DNA of 53,386 bases from the NCBI GenBank assembly GCA_012728835.1, contig JAAYEJ010000080.1:1-53386 (forward strand), given 5' to 3'. This DNA comes from Candidatus Brocadiaceae bacterium (GTDB lineage Bacteria; Planctomycetota; Brocadiia; SM23-32). The notes beneath the pieces are model-generated. The model made no database searches. It saw nothing but the letters and a program-made list of their open reading frames with translations, and was not told the origin of the DNA. Numbering within the stretch: position 1 is the first letter of the stretch; each line of letters opens with the position of its first letter. Below are positions 7,680-12,375 of this stretch, one piece after another. The translations under genes and the position numbers were made by a program.

Positions 7680-7713
7680 GGACTGGCCGATGCGGGCCCC
7701 CGGGGCCGGCGAT

Positions 7714-7742
7714 TTGACAGCCCGCCCGCCATGTGGAATACT
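7714..7742 (+). promoter_or_regulatory. Strong sigma70-like promoter of psd
   Basis: A perfect ttgaca -35 box (7714-7719), a 17-nt spacer and an aatact -10 box (7737-7742), 43 bp before the ATG of psd. One of the clearest promoters in the window. Confidence 0.75.
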
Positions 7743-7785
7743 GCCTGACATCCTCCAAGCAGCCTCTCGCACGATCGGCGGACCC

Positions 7786-8478
7786 ATGCGCATCCCCCTG
7801 GCCCGATACGGCACCGGCACCCTGCTGACGGGCACCGCGCTGCTGGCCGCCGCGGCCGCCGCGGGGCTCTGGCTCTTCCCGCCGCTCGCCGTCGTCGCCG
7901 CGATCCTGTGGCTCTGGATGCTCTGGTTCTTCCGCGATCCGGAACGGAACGCCCGCTGTGGCCCGGAGGACCTGCTCAGCCCGGCCGACGGGACCGTGCG
8001 CGACGTCGAGGAGGTGGACGCGCCGGGCTTCCTCGACGGGAGGGCGGTCCGGATCGGCGTCTTCATGTCCGTCTTCAACGTGCATGTGAACCGCTCGCCG
8101 GCCGACGCGGGCGTCGGCTGGATCAGCTACCACCCGGGCGCATTCCACGACGCGCGCGACCGCCGGGCCTGCCGGAACGAACACAACCTGATCGGGCTCC
8201 AGCTCGCCGGCGGACGCCGCATCCTCGTCAACCAGATTGCGGGCAGGATCGCCCGGCGCATCGTCTGCGAGCCCCAGGTGGGCGCGCAACTGGCGCGCGG
8301 GCAGCGCCTGGGCATGATCAAGTTCGGCAGCCGCGTGGAACTCTACCTCCCGCTGGCGGACGCCTACCGGGTCGCCGTGCGTCCGGGCGACCGCGTGAAG
8401 GCCGGGCTCACCGTCCTGGCCTCCCGCCCCACCGAGCCGCTCGACGACCCCGCAGCCCCGTCCACCGAAACCACATGA
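7786..8478 (+). CDS. psd: Phosphatidylserine decarboxylase proenzyme (short, archaetidylserine-type)
   Basis: A 230-residue PSD-A type proenzyme that makes phosphatidylethanolamine. There is an N-terminal membrane anchor (residues 10-48), then DPERN, LLSPADGTV, FNVHVNR, YHPGAFHDA and NEHN, all standard family blocks. The self-cleavage site is KFGSRVE, with Gly181-Ser182; cleavage makes the pyruvoyl group on the alpha chain, and the FGS form replaces the LGST of the long enterobacterial enzyme. The ATG at 7786 begins MRIPLARYG. Its TGA overlaps the next gene's ATG (ATGA), so the two are translationally coupled. Confidence 0.93.
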   Translation: MRIPLARYGTGTLLTGTALLAAAAAAGLWLFPPLAVVAAILWLWMLWFFRDPERNARCGPEDLLSPADGTVRDVEEVDAPGFLDGRAVRIGVFMSVFNVHVNRSPADAGVGWISYHPGAFHDARDRRACRNEHNLIGLQLAGGRRILVNQIAGRIARRIVCEPQVGAQLARGQRLGMIKFGSRVELYLPLADAYRVAVRPGDRVKAGLTVLASRPTEPLDDPAAPSTETT

Positions 8479-11400
8479 CCGGCCGCCACCGACCTCCGGC
8501 GATACGCGCAGCCCTGCTGGCGCTGGCCGTTGTGTCCATCGCCCCGGCCGCCGCCGACCCCATCCTGGACGCCGCGTTCCGAACCGCGCAATCCCTGTCG
8601 GACCCCTACGCCCGGTGCCGGTCCATCCTCACCGCCGCCCGGGGCTTTGCCGACGCCGGCTTGACGGACCGGGCACTGGAGGCCGTGGCAGCCGCCGAGC
8701 GCGCCTCCGCCGAGACGCCGCTGGCCCGCCAGGCGCTGCTCGAGACGGCCGAAACCTGCGCCCGCTCCGGACTGCACGCCCGCGCGGCCGAGATCGCCGC
8801 CGCCATGGCCTACCTGCCGGACGCCGTGCACGTGCACTGCCTCAGCGCCCGCGAACTGCTGGAATCCGCGGACACCGCAGGCGCCCTCCGCGCGCTCGAC
8901 GCCGCCCGCCTCAGGGCCGCCGAGATGACCGCCCCGGGCGACGCCGCCAGAGCACTTGTCCGCATCGCAGACGTCTACAGCCTGGCCGGACGGCCCGCAG
9001 ACTGGGAGGCGGCCATCCGCGCGGCCGCCGAGGCGGCCCGTGCGGCCGACAGCCCCCTGGCCCGGGCCGTGCTGCTGGAATGGGCCGCCGACGCCTGCCT
9101 GGCCGCCTCGCGGCCCGATGCCGCCCTGACGATCGCCCGGACCGTCGAGGACGCGCAGTCCCGCGCCCCGCTCCTGGTCAGGATCGCGGCCGGCACCGAC
9201 GACCCGGCCGAGGCCGACCGCATCCTCACCGAGGCCCTGGCCGCCGCCGGCACGCTCGCCGATCCGCACAACCGCGCGATGGCGGCCCTGACCGTTGCCG
9301 ACGCGGCCGCGCGGCCCCAGGTGGCCGACGCCGCGCGTGCGGAGGCGCTCCGCGCGCTCCCGGCCATCGCGGATGAACTGCGCGCCGCCAGCGTCCGCGA
9401 CCGGCTGGCCCCGCTGCTGGCGGCCGCCGGGCGGCCGGACGAGGCGATCGCACTGCTCACGCAGACGCCGGACCCCCGCCGGCGCAACGAGCAGATGCTC
9501 CGGCTCGCCCTCGCCCACAGCGAGGCCGGACGCTATGCCGAGGCCGTCCGTTGCGCCGGCGAACTGGACGCCGAGACGCTCCGAACGGCCGGCCCCGCGG
9601 GCCCGGACGGCCTTGCGCTCGCCTTCGCTCGCGCCTGGGGGGAGCCGCCGAATCCGGCCCGGATCGACGGCCTCCGGCCCGATGCGCTCCGCGATGCGGT
9701 GCTCTCGCAGTATGCGCGGGATCTCTCCGGAAGAGGCGAGTGCGACGCGGCCCTGGACCTGACGCAGGCGATCGGCGACGCGATCCGACGCGACGCCGCC
9801 CTGCTGGCGGTCGGCCGCGCCGCGCTGACCTCCGCGACCTCGGGCACCGCCCTTGCACCCGCCCGGCGTGCCCTGGAGCGGATCGCCGGCCTGCCCGAGC
9901 GCCTGATGCTCTCCACGGCGCTCGCCGGCCGAATGGTCGCGCTGGGACGGACCGAGGAGGCGCGCGGCACGCTGGCGGCCGTCGCCGCCCGCAGCGCCGA
10001 ACTCCCGCCCGCCGTTCGCTCCGAGGTGCTCGGGGAGGCGGCGCTGACGTTCGACCGGCTCGGCGACCGGCGGGCGGCGCACGACGCCGCCGTCGGCGCC
10101 GTCGCCGCCGCCCTCGACGTCTCCTGCGCCAGTTGCCGCGACGACGTCATCGGCGATCTGTTCGGCCAGATGTCCGGCCCGGACTACGCGGACCTGGCGC
10201 TGGCGGCCGCCGGGCAGGTCCGGTCGCCGGGCGTGCGGGCGGCGAACCTCCTGCGCATGATCCAACTCGGCGGCGGCCTGGGCGAGGACCAGGCCGAGCG
10301 CCTGCTGCGCAGCGCCCTCCCGGCCGCCATCGGCGCGGAGTCGCCGACGAACCGCGTGGACTATCTCGTTCGAATCGCCGAGCATTATCGGCGCGCCGGC
10401 CTGGAGGTCACGCCGGCCGAACGGCAGGCCCTGCGCCGGGCGGCTCCCGCCCCGGCCGCCGGGCCGACGACGGCGCGACTGCACCCCCATCCGGAATCCG
10501 CCCCCGGCGCCGTGCGTCTGGTCTACTTCGACCGCCCGGGCTGCCCGGAGTGTCTGCGCGTGAAGGCGCTCTTCGAGGACCTGCGGCGCCTGCACCCGGA
10601 CGTGGCGATCGAGGCGTTCGACCTGGGCCTGTCGGAGTCTGCGGCGGTGCTGAACGCGGCCATCTGCGAGGGCCTGGGAGTGCCCCGCGAACAGCGCTTC
10701 GTGGCCCCGTCGGTGTTCTCCTCGCGGGGGGGCCTGGTCGGGTCGGAGATCACGCTCTCGGCCCTGTCCGAGCTGGCCCACGACGGGCGGGGCCTGCCGT
10801 CGCCGATCGAGGCCTTCGGGCAGCCGGACGACGGCCGCGCCGTGATCGAGGAGACCTACGGCGACCTCGGCGTCGTCCTGATCGTCTCGGCCGCGCTGGC
10901 GGACGGTTTCAACCCCTGTGCGTTCACGGTCATTATCTTCTTCCTGTCCTACCTGGCCCACGTGGGCCGCGGACGCCGCCAGATCGTGCAGGTCGGCGCC
11001 GTCTACACGGCGGCCGTGTTCGTGACCTACCTGGGCATCGGGGTGGCCCTGTTGGGTGCGGCGCAGGCTGCGGACGCGTGGTCCGGGCCGATTCACGCCG
11101 TCATGGCGGCGCTGGCACTCACCGCCGCGGCGCTGAGCCTTCGGGACGGCGTGCGCTGCCTGCGGGGGCACGCGACGGATCTGACGCTGTCGCTTCCGGA
11201 GGGCATCCGCAGCCGGATCCGCCTGACGATCTCCCGCCGGACGCGCATGGGTCTGACGCTGGCGGCGACGGCGACGCTGGGGGCGGTCGTGGCGCTGCTG
11301 GAGTTCCCGTGCACGGGCTGGGTCTACCTGCCGATCGTCATCGCGCTGCGGCACATGCCGCAGGCCCGGTGGGGAGCCTTCGGATGGCTGGTGCTCTACA

Positions 11401-11570
11401 ACGTGATCTTCATCCTGCCGCTGGTCGTCGTCTTCACGGCCGTCGTGTTCGGGCTCACGTCCGAGCGGCTCACCGCGCTCTTCCGCCGGCACCTGGCGCT
11501 GACGAAGTTCGGCCTGGCGGCCGTCTTCGCCGGCCTGGCCGCCTACCTGGTCACGCAGGCGATGGGCTGA
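8475..11570 (+). CDS. Large fusion: secreted TPR-like region, CPEC glutaredoxin-like domain, DsbD/CcdA-like membrane domain
   Basis: A 1031-residue protein. A signal sequence (about 1-27, ending IAPAAADPI) precedes a long Ala/Arg/Glu helical repeat region (about 30-660) in which short TPR/SEL1-like units recur (ALRALDAARLRAAEM, ADRILTEALAAAGTLAD). Residues about 680-770 form a thioredoxin/glutaredoxin-like fold with VYFDRPGCPECLRV, redox pair Cys690/Cys693. The C-terminal 230 residues are a polytopic membrane domain with DGFNPCAFTVIIFFLSYLA (Cys815) and LEFPCTGW (Cys946), the paired membrane cysteines of DsbD/CcdA transporters. It should pass electrons across the inner membrane to periplasmic thiols. 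Its start overlaps psd by 4 bp. The in-frame fusion of the three parts is seen; the electron path is inferred from DsbD. Confidence 0.8.
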   Translation: MTGRHRPPAIRAALLALAVVSIAPAAADPILDAAFRTAQSLSDPYARCRSILTAARGFADAGLTDRALEAVAAAERASAETPLARQALLETAETCARSGLHARAAEIAAAMAYLPDAVHVHCLSARELLESADTAGALRALDAARLRAAEMTAPGDAARALVRIADVYSLAGRPADWEAAIRAAAEAARAADSPLARAVLLEWAADACLAASRPDAALTIARTVEDAQSRAPLLVRIAAGTDDPAEADRILTEALAAAGTLADPHNRAMAALTVADAAARPQVADAARAEALRALPAIADELRAASVRDRLAPLLAAAGRPDEAIALLTQTPDPRRRNEQMLRLALAHSEAGRYAEAVRCAGELDAETLRTAGPAGPDGLALAFARAWGEPPNPARIDGLRPDALRDAVLSQYARDLSGRGECDAALDLTQAIGDAIRRDAALLAVGRAALTSATSGTALAPARRALERIAGLPERLMLSTALAGRMVALGRTEEARGTLAAVAARSAELPPAVRSEVLGEAALTFDRLGDRRAAHDAAVGAVAAALDVSCASCRDDVIGDLFGQMSGPDYADLALAAAGQVRSPGVRAANLLRMIQLGGGLGEDQAERLLRSALPAAIGAESPTNRVDYLVRIAEHYRRAGLEVTPAERQALRRAAPAPAAGPTTARLHPHPESAPGAVRLVYFDRPGCPECLRVKALFEDLRRLHPDVAIEAFDLGLSESAAVLNAAICEGLGVPREQRFVAPSVFSSRGGLVGSEITLSALSELAHDGRGLPSPIEAFGQPDDGRAVIEETYGDLGVVLIVSAALADGFNPCAFTVIIFFLSYLAHVGRGRRQIVQVGAVYTAAVFVTYLGIGVALLGAAQAADAWSGPIHAVMAALALTAAALSLRDGVRCLRGHATDLTLSLPEGIRSRIRLTISRRTRMGLTLAATATLGAVVALLEFPCTGWVYLPIVIALRHMPQARWGAFGWLVLYNVIFILPLVVVFTAVVFGLTSERLTALFRRHLALTKFGLAAVFAGLAAYLVTQAMG

Positions 11571-11576
11571 ATGCGC

Positions 11577-11945
11577 TCAGAGCACCTCCTCTTCCGAGCG
11601 CCGCACCAGAAGGCCGTCCTGGAACTCGAAGGAGTACCGCGTGATCCGCTTCCTCTGCGACCGCCAGCCGAGCAGGAAGATCACGCCCAGCTCGGAACGC
11701 ACCGTCCGCTCGTAGACGTACGTGAGCACCTCGCGCCCGTCGTCGAAACGTACCCGCTGATCGGGCGCCCCGAACGCACGCACCACGTCGTCCACACTGG
11801 TCGTGCCCTCCTGGAGCACCACCAGCCGCTCGGTGGCCACGGCCCCGCCCCGCTCGGCCACGGTGCGCTCGCGGACGACCAGGCACCCCGTCGTCGCCAG
11901 CAGAACCACGCACGCCGCACACACCAGCCTCGCCGTTCCTCGCAT
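11577..11945 (-). CDS. Small BamE/SmpA-like lipoprotein (copy 2)
   Basis: A 122-residue protein with a lipoprotein signal ending at LLATTGC. The mature part (VLQEGTTSVDDVVRAFGAP, FDDGREVLTYVY) has the G-x-T-xx-(E/D)V-xx-x-G-P and (V/W)-x-Y pattern of the SmpA/OmlA/BamE fold, suggesting an outer- or inner-membrane anchored small domain. The ATG at 11945 is chosen over the GTG one codon upstream because ggagg lies 7 bp before it. It is a paralogue of the gene just upstream (11968-12375), sharing FDDGREVLTYVY and GLLVRR. It ends 6 bp from the convergent fusion gene. Confidence 0.72.
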   Translation of the reverse strand: MRGTARLVCAACVVLLATTGCLVVRERTVAERGGAVATERLVVLQEGTTSVDDVVRAFGAPDQRVRFDDGREVLTYVYERTVRSELGVIFLLGWRSQRKRITRYSFEFQDGLLVRRSEEEVL

Positions 11946-11967
11946 CACAATCCCTCCATGCGGGCGA

Positions 11968-12375
11968 TCACGCGGACTCGTCCGTTCCGGGCCCTGTGGA
12001 GACCGCCACCTCCTCTTGCTCCCACCGGCGCACCAGCAGCCCGTTCCGGAACTCGAAGTAGTAGTGCGTCTCCCGCCTCGTCTCAGACGTCCAGCCGATC
12101 ACGAACATGAACCGCTTCTTCACGCGCACGGTCCGCCCGTAGACGTAGGTGAGCACCTCGCGTCCGTCGTCGAACCTCTCGCGCCGGTCCGGACTGCCGA
12201 ACGCCCCCACAACCTCCTCGACGGTGGTCACGCCCTCCTGAAGGGCGGCGGTCCGGTCGGCCGCCAGGACGGTGCCCTGCACGTTCGATACCGACCACTG
12301 GCGCCCGTAGTGGCACCCGGCGGCCGCCACGAGGACGACGCACGCCAGCCCTGCAAGACCCCATGCTCTCTTCAT
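11968..12375 (-). CDS. Small BamE/SmpA-like lipoprotein (copy 1)
   Basis: A 135-residue lipoprotein with lipobox VAAAGC after a Lys/Arg-led signal. The mature region repeats the pattern of its downstream neighbour: ALQEGVTTVEEVVGAFGSPDRRERF, then DDGREVLTYVYGRTVR and FEFRNGLLVRRWEQEE. The two clearly arose by tandem duplication. The ATG at 12375 has ggagg 7 bp upstream. BamE-like folds act in outer-membrane assembly or as general small lipoproteins; the exact role here cannot be read from sequence. The 140 bp before it (12376-12515) hold no gene. Confidence 0.72.
   Translation of the reverse strand: MKRAWGLAGLACVVLVAAAGCHYGRQWSVSNVQGTVLAADRTAALQEGVTTVEEVVGAFGSPDRRERFDDGREVLTYVYGRTVRVKKRFMFVIGWTSETRRETHYYFEFRNGLLVRRWEQEEVAVSTGPGTDESA

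Follow-up and report, generated by a model that had tools for sequence, protein, structure and literature searches.

The comparative and structural evidence presented here confirms that a TPR array, a thioredoxin-fold domain and a DsbD/CcdA-like membrane core form a genuine fusion in a Candidatus Brocadiaceae bacterium. The window, meaning the whole stretch of DNA analysed, comprises the 53,386 nucleotides of contig JAAYEJ010000080.1 (GCA_012728835.1), forward strand; the fusion gene (P0001) occupies positions 8475..11570 on the + strand, as do all features given below, and encodes 1031 aa. We consider it likely that the protein works as a DsbD/CcdA-type conduit for thiol reductant across the membrane, with the TPR solenoid serving as a dock for its partners. 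Electrons from cytoplasmic thioredoxin would reach the membrane core at C815/C946 and pass from there to the periplasmic thioredoxin-fold domain (C690/C693), which would in turn reduce putative envelope proteins docked on the large solenoid in the periplasm; C551/C554, a pair within the array placed like the outer thioredoxin domain of relatives or the nDsbD of DsbD, might add a further redox step. The overall path would run from cytoplasmic thioredoxin through the core and the thioredoxin domain to the TPR arm or the partners it holds.

The reading frame has no internal stops, and the original prediction of repeats, a CPEC domain and a DsbD-like core within one 1031-residue protein is borne out by the profile match and by the predicted model (mean pLDDT 87.7 for the whole protein). 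Separate genes, or a frameshift or assembly error joining them, are ruled out because complete homologues exist that are open through all regions: P0003, of 1062 aa, and P0005, of 1094 aa with an uncertain start. By eye, residues 1-27 (8475..8555) resemble a signal peptide, with a basic start, a hydrophobic stretch and APAAA-D; hydropathy marks residues 7-28 as hydrophobic, and the model places a helix at 8-21 with flanks of low pLDDT.

The core (residues 784-1030; 10824..11564) has six membrane crossings as read from the model and forms the C-terminal end of the protein. Compared with DsbD by hhalign, it gave a probability of 97.2% (E 1.4e-9, 214 columns) with the membrane cysteines aligned, while reversed DsbD and an unrelated FecCD-like permease, run as controls, gave no match; against E. 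coli DsbD alone the result was weaker (56% probability). C815 (G-F-N-P-C-A-F; 10917..10919) aligns with the T-P-C of DsbD and C946 (E-F-P-C-T-G; 11310..11312) with its S-P-C-T. C690, C693, P745 and C815 are invariant in the 42 rows of alignment A4 and also in alignment A5, and C946 is invariant in all 41 rows that reach it (A5). The predicted retention of both membrane cysteines in a DsbD-like core therefore stands. Homology of the core, together with two conserved membrane cysteines each preceded by proline, places the protein in the DsbD/CcdA superfamily, and the profile comparison indicates that the core is a remote relative of these proteins: it reaches no Pfam or NCBIfam cut-off, P0001 does not match PF02683 (DsbD_TM) at E 1, and just two of the 41 core relatives do so at E 0.01. 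Charge distribution in P0001 and four homologues predicts positive loops inside and the N-terminus outside. In a structure search with a model extending beyond the core, the matches listed were filled by thioredoxin domains, and CcdA was not among them.

The thioredoxin domain (residues 680-771; 10512..10787) precedes the core. Its predicted thioredoxin/glutaredoxin fold superposes on 9bxs_E with a Z score of 10.3 and an rmsd of 1.8 over 80 aligned residues. It contains the active-site motif C690-P-E-C693 (10542..10553), whose cysteines are invariant in 42/42 rows of A4 and 41/41 of A5, and P745 (10707..10709), invariant in both alignments, which we take to be the thioredoxin cis-proline position. 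Fold, CxxC and cis-proline together identify a thioredoxin fold, in agreement with the redox role first assigned to the CPEC domain.

Residues 28-656 (8556..10442) are modelled as a TPR solenoid of 36 helices. The helical repeat domain originally proposed is upheld by the profiles and the structure prediction, but its length is about 629 residues rather than 650. P0001 alone stays below the Pfam cut-offs (TPR_16, E 0.025), whereas TPR_12 is matched in three of the five TPR-group members (best 4.1e-13) and the array with its relatives matches consensus-TPR proteins among solved structures at 1.3e-24; a TPR profile and a solenoid of helix pairs thus coincide. The region is entirely helical in the model, so an immunoglobulin-fold nDsbD domain is absent from the N-terminus. 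TPR domains are usually protein-docking scaffolds, and recruitment of substrates by these repeats, as first suggested, is plausible. The idea that the TPR tail is a decayed thioredoxin domain was rejected (hhalign probability 2.2% against 99.2% for the positive control), the model being helical there. Nor did the array show any relationship to the stretch preceding the thioredoxin domain in L124 (0.3%).

Of eight further genomes in the bacterium's Planctomycetota family, four encode TPR-bearing homologues, two of which are complete. A contig search with P0001 as query found nothing, while one with the core alignment returned 309 relatives, for the best 80 of which the preceding modules were surveyed. 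By CxxC pattern, a single thioredoxin domain precedes the core in 57 of these 80 loci (at least one being ended by a contig edge), and 19 encode a tandem thioredoxin-thioredoxin-core protein. DUF1573-thioredoxin-core proteins (L047, L051, L130) likewise carry an N-terminal module before the thioredoxin domain and core, but a different one; weaker DUF1573 matches, under the cut-off, occur in L127, L128 and L129. Among the core relatives, including ten N-terminal regions from outside the family that were submitted to Pfam, the front module thus varies (thioredoxin, DUF1573, DUF4175/DUF4159 or TPR), while the core is kept and, as a rule, the thioredoxin domain too; the function of the outer module can therefore be put to the test. 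In a quick tree the TPR group falls within a 28-row set (SH-aLRT 99) of 19 tandem-thioredoxin, five TPR and four single rows, and two changes are required to account for the TPR rows; the tree marks the row of the window protein as unusual in composition and L053 (G008) as long-branched. The group thus appears, on this quick tree, to belong to a core clade mostly with two thioredoxin domains in tandem. The spacing from outer to inner cysteine pair outside the membrane is 114-141 residues in the tandem proteins against 134-139 in the TPR proteins; in the former the outer pair sits in a thioredoxin fold, in the latter in an unrelated array of TPR helices.

That outer pair in the fusion protein is C551-A-S-C554 (10125..10136), at the start of the TPR helix 552-565. 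Four cysteines had been counted as relevant, but six are conserved (551/554, 690/693, 815, 946); C551-x-S-C554 was absent from the earlier list. The C-x-S-C motif is kept in all five TPR-bearing proteins at 20-44% identity, and its two columns are the only all-cysteine columns when the TPR parts of the five are aligned. None of 20,000 residue shuffles gave an all-cysteine column, in a test that ignores the relatedness of the five sequences, all of which come from one Planctomycetota family. Redox CxxC motifs sit at helix starts, and C551/C554, at a helix N-terminus, may provide a further redox step. The reading that we weigh most seriously against this is that the array is a scaffold or dock only, C551/C554 forming a disulfide with a structural role or helping to bind a metal, and the thioredoxin domain alone delivering electrons. 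We regard this as quite possible: it accords with the usual role of TPR domains, with how often one thioredoxin domain alone precedes the core and with the unlikeness of the TPR tail to an outer thioredoxin domain, but it leaves aside that no cysteine pair other than C-x-S-C is shared by all five TPR proteins and that this pair lies at a helix start; a metal site would require additional ligands, yet no other cysteine column is invariant. More tentatively, and with some doubt, a TPR solenoid with a redox-active C-x-S-C may have replaced the outer thioredoxin domain and do the job of nDsbD, both gripping partners and handing over electrons. If true, such an arm would be a new coupling of partner docking to thiol delivery and, in one family of uncultured Planctomycetota, an arm with its own cysteine pair may be the delivery end of the chain.

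The conduit that we favour resembles E. coli DsbD (b4136) in its homologous core with two aligned membrane cysteines, its periplasmic thioredoxin-fold domain and a second periplasmic domain, not of thioredoxin type, that bears a cysteine pair. It had been assumed that DsbD joins two thioredoxin-like domains; according to PMC7347389, the N-domain of the E. coli protein is immunoglobulin-like and its core crosses the membrane eight times. The fusion protein differs in having six crossings, as read from the model, a thioredoxin domain that precedes the core instead of following it, and a TPR array in place of the immunoglobulin-fold nDsbD, and it falls short of the PF02683 cut-off. Its six-helix core with two cysteines is also like CcdA, as described for Scalindua in PMC4222556. 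The periplasmic part of the fusion protein, of about 780 residues, sets it apart from CcdA. To our knowledge, CcdA carries no large periplasmic domains. YbbN is cytoplasmic and has no membrane core. It nevertheless unites a thioredoxin-like domain and an atypical TPR motif in one protein (title cited in PMC7084401). Fusion of further modules to a DsbD-like core has precedents, namely TsoB (NF045694), a rhodanese/DsbD fusion-like selenoprotein (PMC13188914) that, unlike the fusion protein, has a rhodanese module and selenocysteine, and a putative DsbC-DsbD fusion of Magnetospirillum gryphiswaldense (PMC7676999), in which the delivery domain on DsbD is DsbC, not TPR. NF045694 is matched by only two of 41 core members (best E 0.0041). 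Katzen et al. reportedly proposed in 2002 that domain fusion broadens the range of substrates open to DsbD. No TPR-DsbD fusion is named in the titles and abstract openings listed by searches of the open-licence literature, or described in the accessible parts of PMC5403849, PMC4222556, PMC13095759, PMC13188914, PMC7347389, PMC7084401, PMC7676999 and PMC9803151.

The genome also encodes a canonical DsbD, two loci other than that of the fusion gene matching PF02683; the fusion protein is therefore not needed as a general conduit and is probably a specialised second one. Alternatively, the protein might be a dedicated apocytochrome c reductase in which apocytochrome c is held by the array, a role played in other bacteria by the TPR protein CcmI, and its haem-binding cysteines are kept reduced by the thioredoxin domain. 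ResB is encoded in the genome next to a CcsA-like frame (by eye), so that cytochrome c synthesis by system II is likely, but the fusion gene sits with psd and not with cytochrome genes, and the canonical DsbD could meet the same need; we regard this role as unlikely.

The fusion gene overlaps by four bases (ATGA) the upstream psd gene (7690..8478; 262 aa; Pfam PS_Dcarbxylase, 2.7e-36), which encodes phosphatidylserine decarboxylase. This overlap, originally read as translational coupling, is present in three genomes (G000, G001 and G003) and probably in a fourth (G005) but absent from a fifth (G004), and the link between membrane lipid and redox control drawn from it is positional only and unproven. 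In G005 the ORF downstream of psd begins like a signal peptide, shows a weak TPR likeness (E 8e-6 at best, composition adjustment off) and runs off the contig; of four references, P0003 and P0005 gave alignment scores above those of all 200 shuffles, and P0001 and P0004 did not, consistent with a psd-overlapping homologue spread over two contigs. One could imagine the protein working in a lipid or envelope-stress module linked to psd, for instance by shielding Psd or its partners from oxidation. The psd overlap in G000, G001 and G003, and probably in G005, where a search upstream revealed neither proA- nor lpxI-like genes, would fit, as would the pssA-like gene (by eye) that comes after psd in the three class relatives read (G010, G011, G012). 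We give this little credence: G004 has the fusion protein without an adjoining psd, which was not found in that genome (85% complete), and proA- and lpxI-like genes are also conserved near psd in G000, G001 and G003 (confirmed by tblastn in G001 and G003), so that adjacency there may be simply inherited. We know of no biochemical link between psd function and a thiol-redox protein.

It is very improbable that the core is an ArsG-like efflux permease or another transporter with an accessory thioredoxin domain, even though 29 of 41 core relatives match the NCBIfam ArsG model NF040495 (E <= 0.01, best 3.7e-7), since the window protein, at 12 bits, lies below the model's cut-off of 200 bits, the two invariant membrane cysteines align with the DsbD pair, and thioredoxin-like CxxC regions recur before the core.

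As the original prediction had proposed, all regions of the fusion, from the TPR array through the thioredoxin-like domain to the DsbD-like membrane core, lie in one 1031-residue protein: the frame at 8475-11570 (+) is open over 1031 codons. It starts within the stop codon (ATGA) of psd, the phosphatidylserine decarboxylase gene (7690..8478, +), and occurs once in its own genome, a 96.9% complete assembly of 3.07 Mb in 82 contigs. Its cysteines stand at 48, 95, 122, 208, 360, 423, 551, 554, 690, 693, 731, 815, 895 and 946. Searched alone, the protein gave Pfam matches under the cut-off (glutaredoxin, E 0.023; TPR_16, 0.025), none in the membrane part, and no NCBIfam match above cut-off. Directly past the gene, on the opposite strand, are two adjoining, alike small lipoprotein-like genes, BamE-like by eye (11577-11948 and 11968-12375, both -).

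Compared profile to profile, 41 cores match 15 DsbD cores over 214 columns (probability 97.2%, E 1.4e-9), with N-P-C(815) lying over the DsbD T-P-C and P-C(946)-T over S-P-C-T; the core profile matched neither reversed DsbD nor a permease from the window. Against E. coli DsbD alone the match is at E 1.1e-4 (56%), and PF02683, the Pfam DsbD_TM model, recognises 2 of the 41 cores at E 0.01. Given the profile match and the few PF02683 matches, the core is therefore, judged by sequence, a remote relative in the DsbD/CcdA superfamily, outside the curated family. The thioredoxin-plus-core family is widespread and nearly invisible to PF02683, and merits a model of its own. A weak likeness to the NCBIfam ArsG family is seen in 29 of the 41 relatives. 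As counted on the predicted model, the core has six crossings, helices 784-811 and 814-830 being taken as a single kinked one; on this reading, loop charge in five proteins places the loop after the C815 helix and the TM3-TM4 and TM5-TM6 loops inside and the N-terminal domains outside.

AlphaFold2 models the whole protein with a mean pLDDT of 87.7 (pTM 0.65) and residues 676-1031 by themselves with 89.9 (pTM 0.80). The 36 helices modelled across residues 28-656 resemble TPR and other helical solenoids among solved structures (best 1w3b, Z 15.2, rmsd 19.5, 373 residues), helical repeats generally scoring high. We assign the array to TPR because its five-row profile matches designed consensus TPRs (1.3e-24) and TPR_12 is matched in three of the five TPR-bearing members. 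Residues 680-771 adopt a predicted thioredoxin fold (Z 10.3, rmsd 1.8, 80 aligned).

Whole-protein matches occur in 6 of 58 genomes, all of the window's own family (its own genome, G001, G003, G004, G005 and G008), two homologues being cut by contig ends (G003 at the 3' end, G005 at the 5' end). The core profile matches 7 of 75 genomes at class level, every one from this family (G002 just weakly), and 55 of 392 at phylum level (E 0.001), many weakly. Five of the six proteins, the window's included, carry the TPR part; G008 has a tandem pair of thioredoxin-like regions in its place. At 1e-8 the TPR alignment finds 6 of 39 genomes, the five TPR-bearing ones and, weakly (4.5e-10), G011, which has no core match.

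Residues 551 and 554 are the only invariant cysteine columns among the five TPR-bearing proteins, and serine 553 is likewise invariant. They fall in a 265-column stretch common to all five, in which 17 columns are invariant and pairs share 20-44% identity; none of 20,000 within-row shuffles, which ignore kinship, produced an all-cysteine column. In the model C551 directly precedes helix 552-565. The pair lies 139 residues from the thioredoxin CxxC in the window protein and 134-139 in the other TPR proteins; the two CxxC motifs of tandem-thioredoxin relatives are 114-141 residues apart. The TPR tail has no detectable kinship with the outer thioredoxin domain of those relatives (probability 2.2%).

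Among the best 80 of 309 core relatives, of which at least one (L064) is cut by a contig end, the CxxC pattern gives 4 TPR fusions, 19 tandem thioredoxin-like proteins and 57 single ones. In a quick tree of 69 cores the TPR group joins G008 (support 99), and both are nested in a 28-row set (19 tandem, 5 TPR, 4 single; support 99), separate from 41 single-domain rows, chiefly Omnitrophota and Elusimicrobiota. On the simplest reading, which is not proven, the TPR array replaced an outer thioredoxin domain; the tree requires two changes for TPR and has a long branch at the G008 row. Additional N-terminal modules appear in 7 of 10 regions put to Pfam. In six, from several phyla, a DUF1573 module stands ahead of the thioredoxin domain and the DsbD-like core (L047:4846-5649, L051:190-759, L130:1892-2314; under cut-off in L127, L128 and L129). 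The 1290-aa L124 protein (L124:2907-6776, -) matches DUF4175 and DUF4159 and, past a long region with no assignment, has a thioredoxin-like domain and the same core.

The psd and fusion genes are likely part of one operon. They overlap and adjoin in the window's genome, G001 and G003, where proA- and lpxI-like genes beyond psd (named by eye) are also conserved. In G005 the two are on different contigs; the stretch upstream of psd yielded neither a proA- nor an lpxI-like gene, and after psd an ORF that begins like a signal peptide and weakly resembles TPR sequence runs to the contig end. Four of nine family genomes have psd; it was not found in the TPR-bearing G004 or in G002, G006, G007 and G008, each less than 90% complete. 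In four genomes read outside the family, a pssA-like gene comes next after psd in G010, G011 and G012 (in G012 at one of two psd copies), and G009 has a gene resembling neither pssA nor the fusion gene (all by eye).

In E. coli DsbD, as PMC7347389 describes it, electrons pass from thioredoxin through the membrane core and cDsbD to nDsbD, a hub with an immunoglobulin fold, and on to periplasmic proteins. The fusion protein has comparable elements, but in a different order; by analogy, electrons would flow in the DsbD direction and the TPR array would take the hub position of nDsbD. The window's genome also encodes a canonical DsbD (619-codon frame, E 2.8e-45) and ResB, adjoined by a CcsA-like frame (by eye); the TPR protein is thus probably a specialised second conduit. 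Since CcmI, a TPR protein, is thought to hold apocytochrome c in other systems (PMC7676999), apocytochrome c may be a concrete candidate partner class. Elsewhere in this genome (L136, on contig C12), a permease, a small CPKC glutaredoxin-like protein and a CcdA-like frame lie near one another in what looks by eye like a thiol or metalloid cluster.
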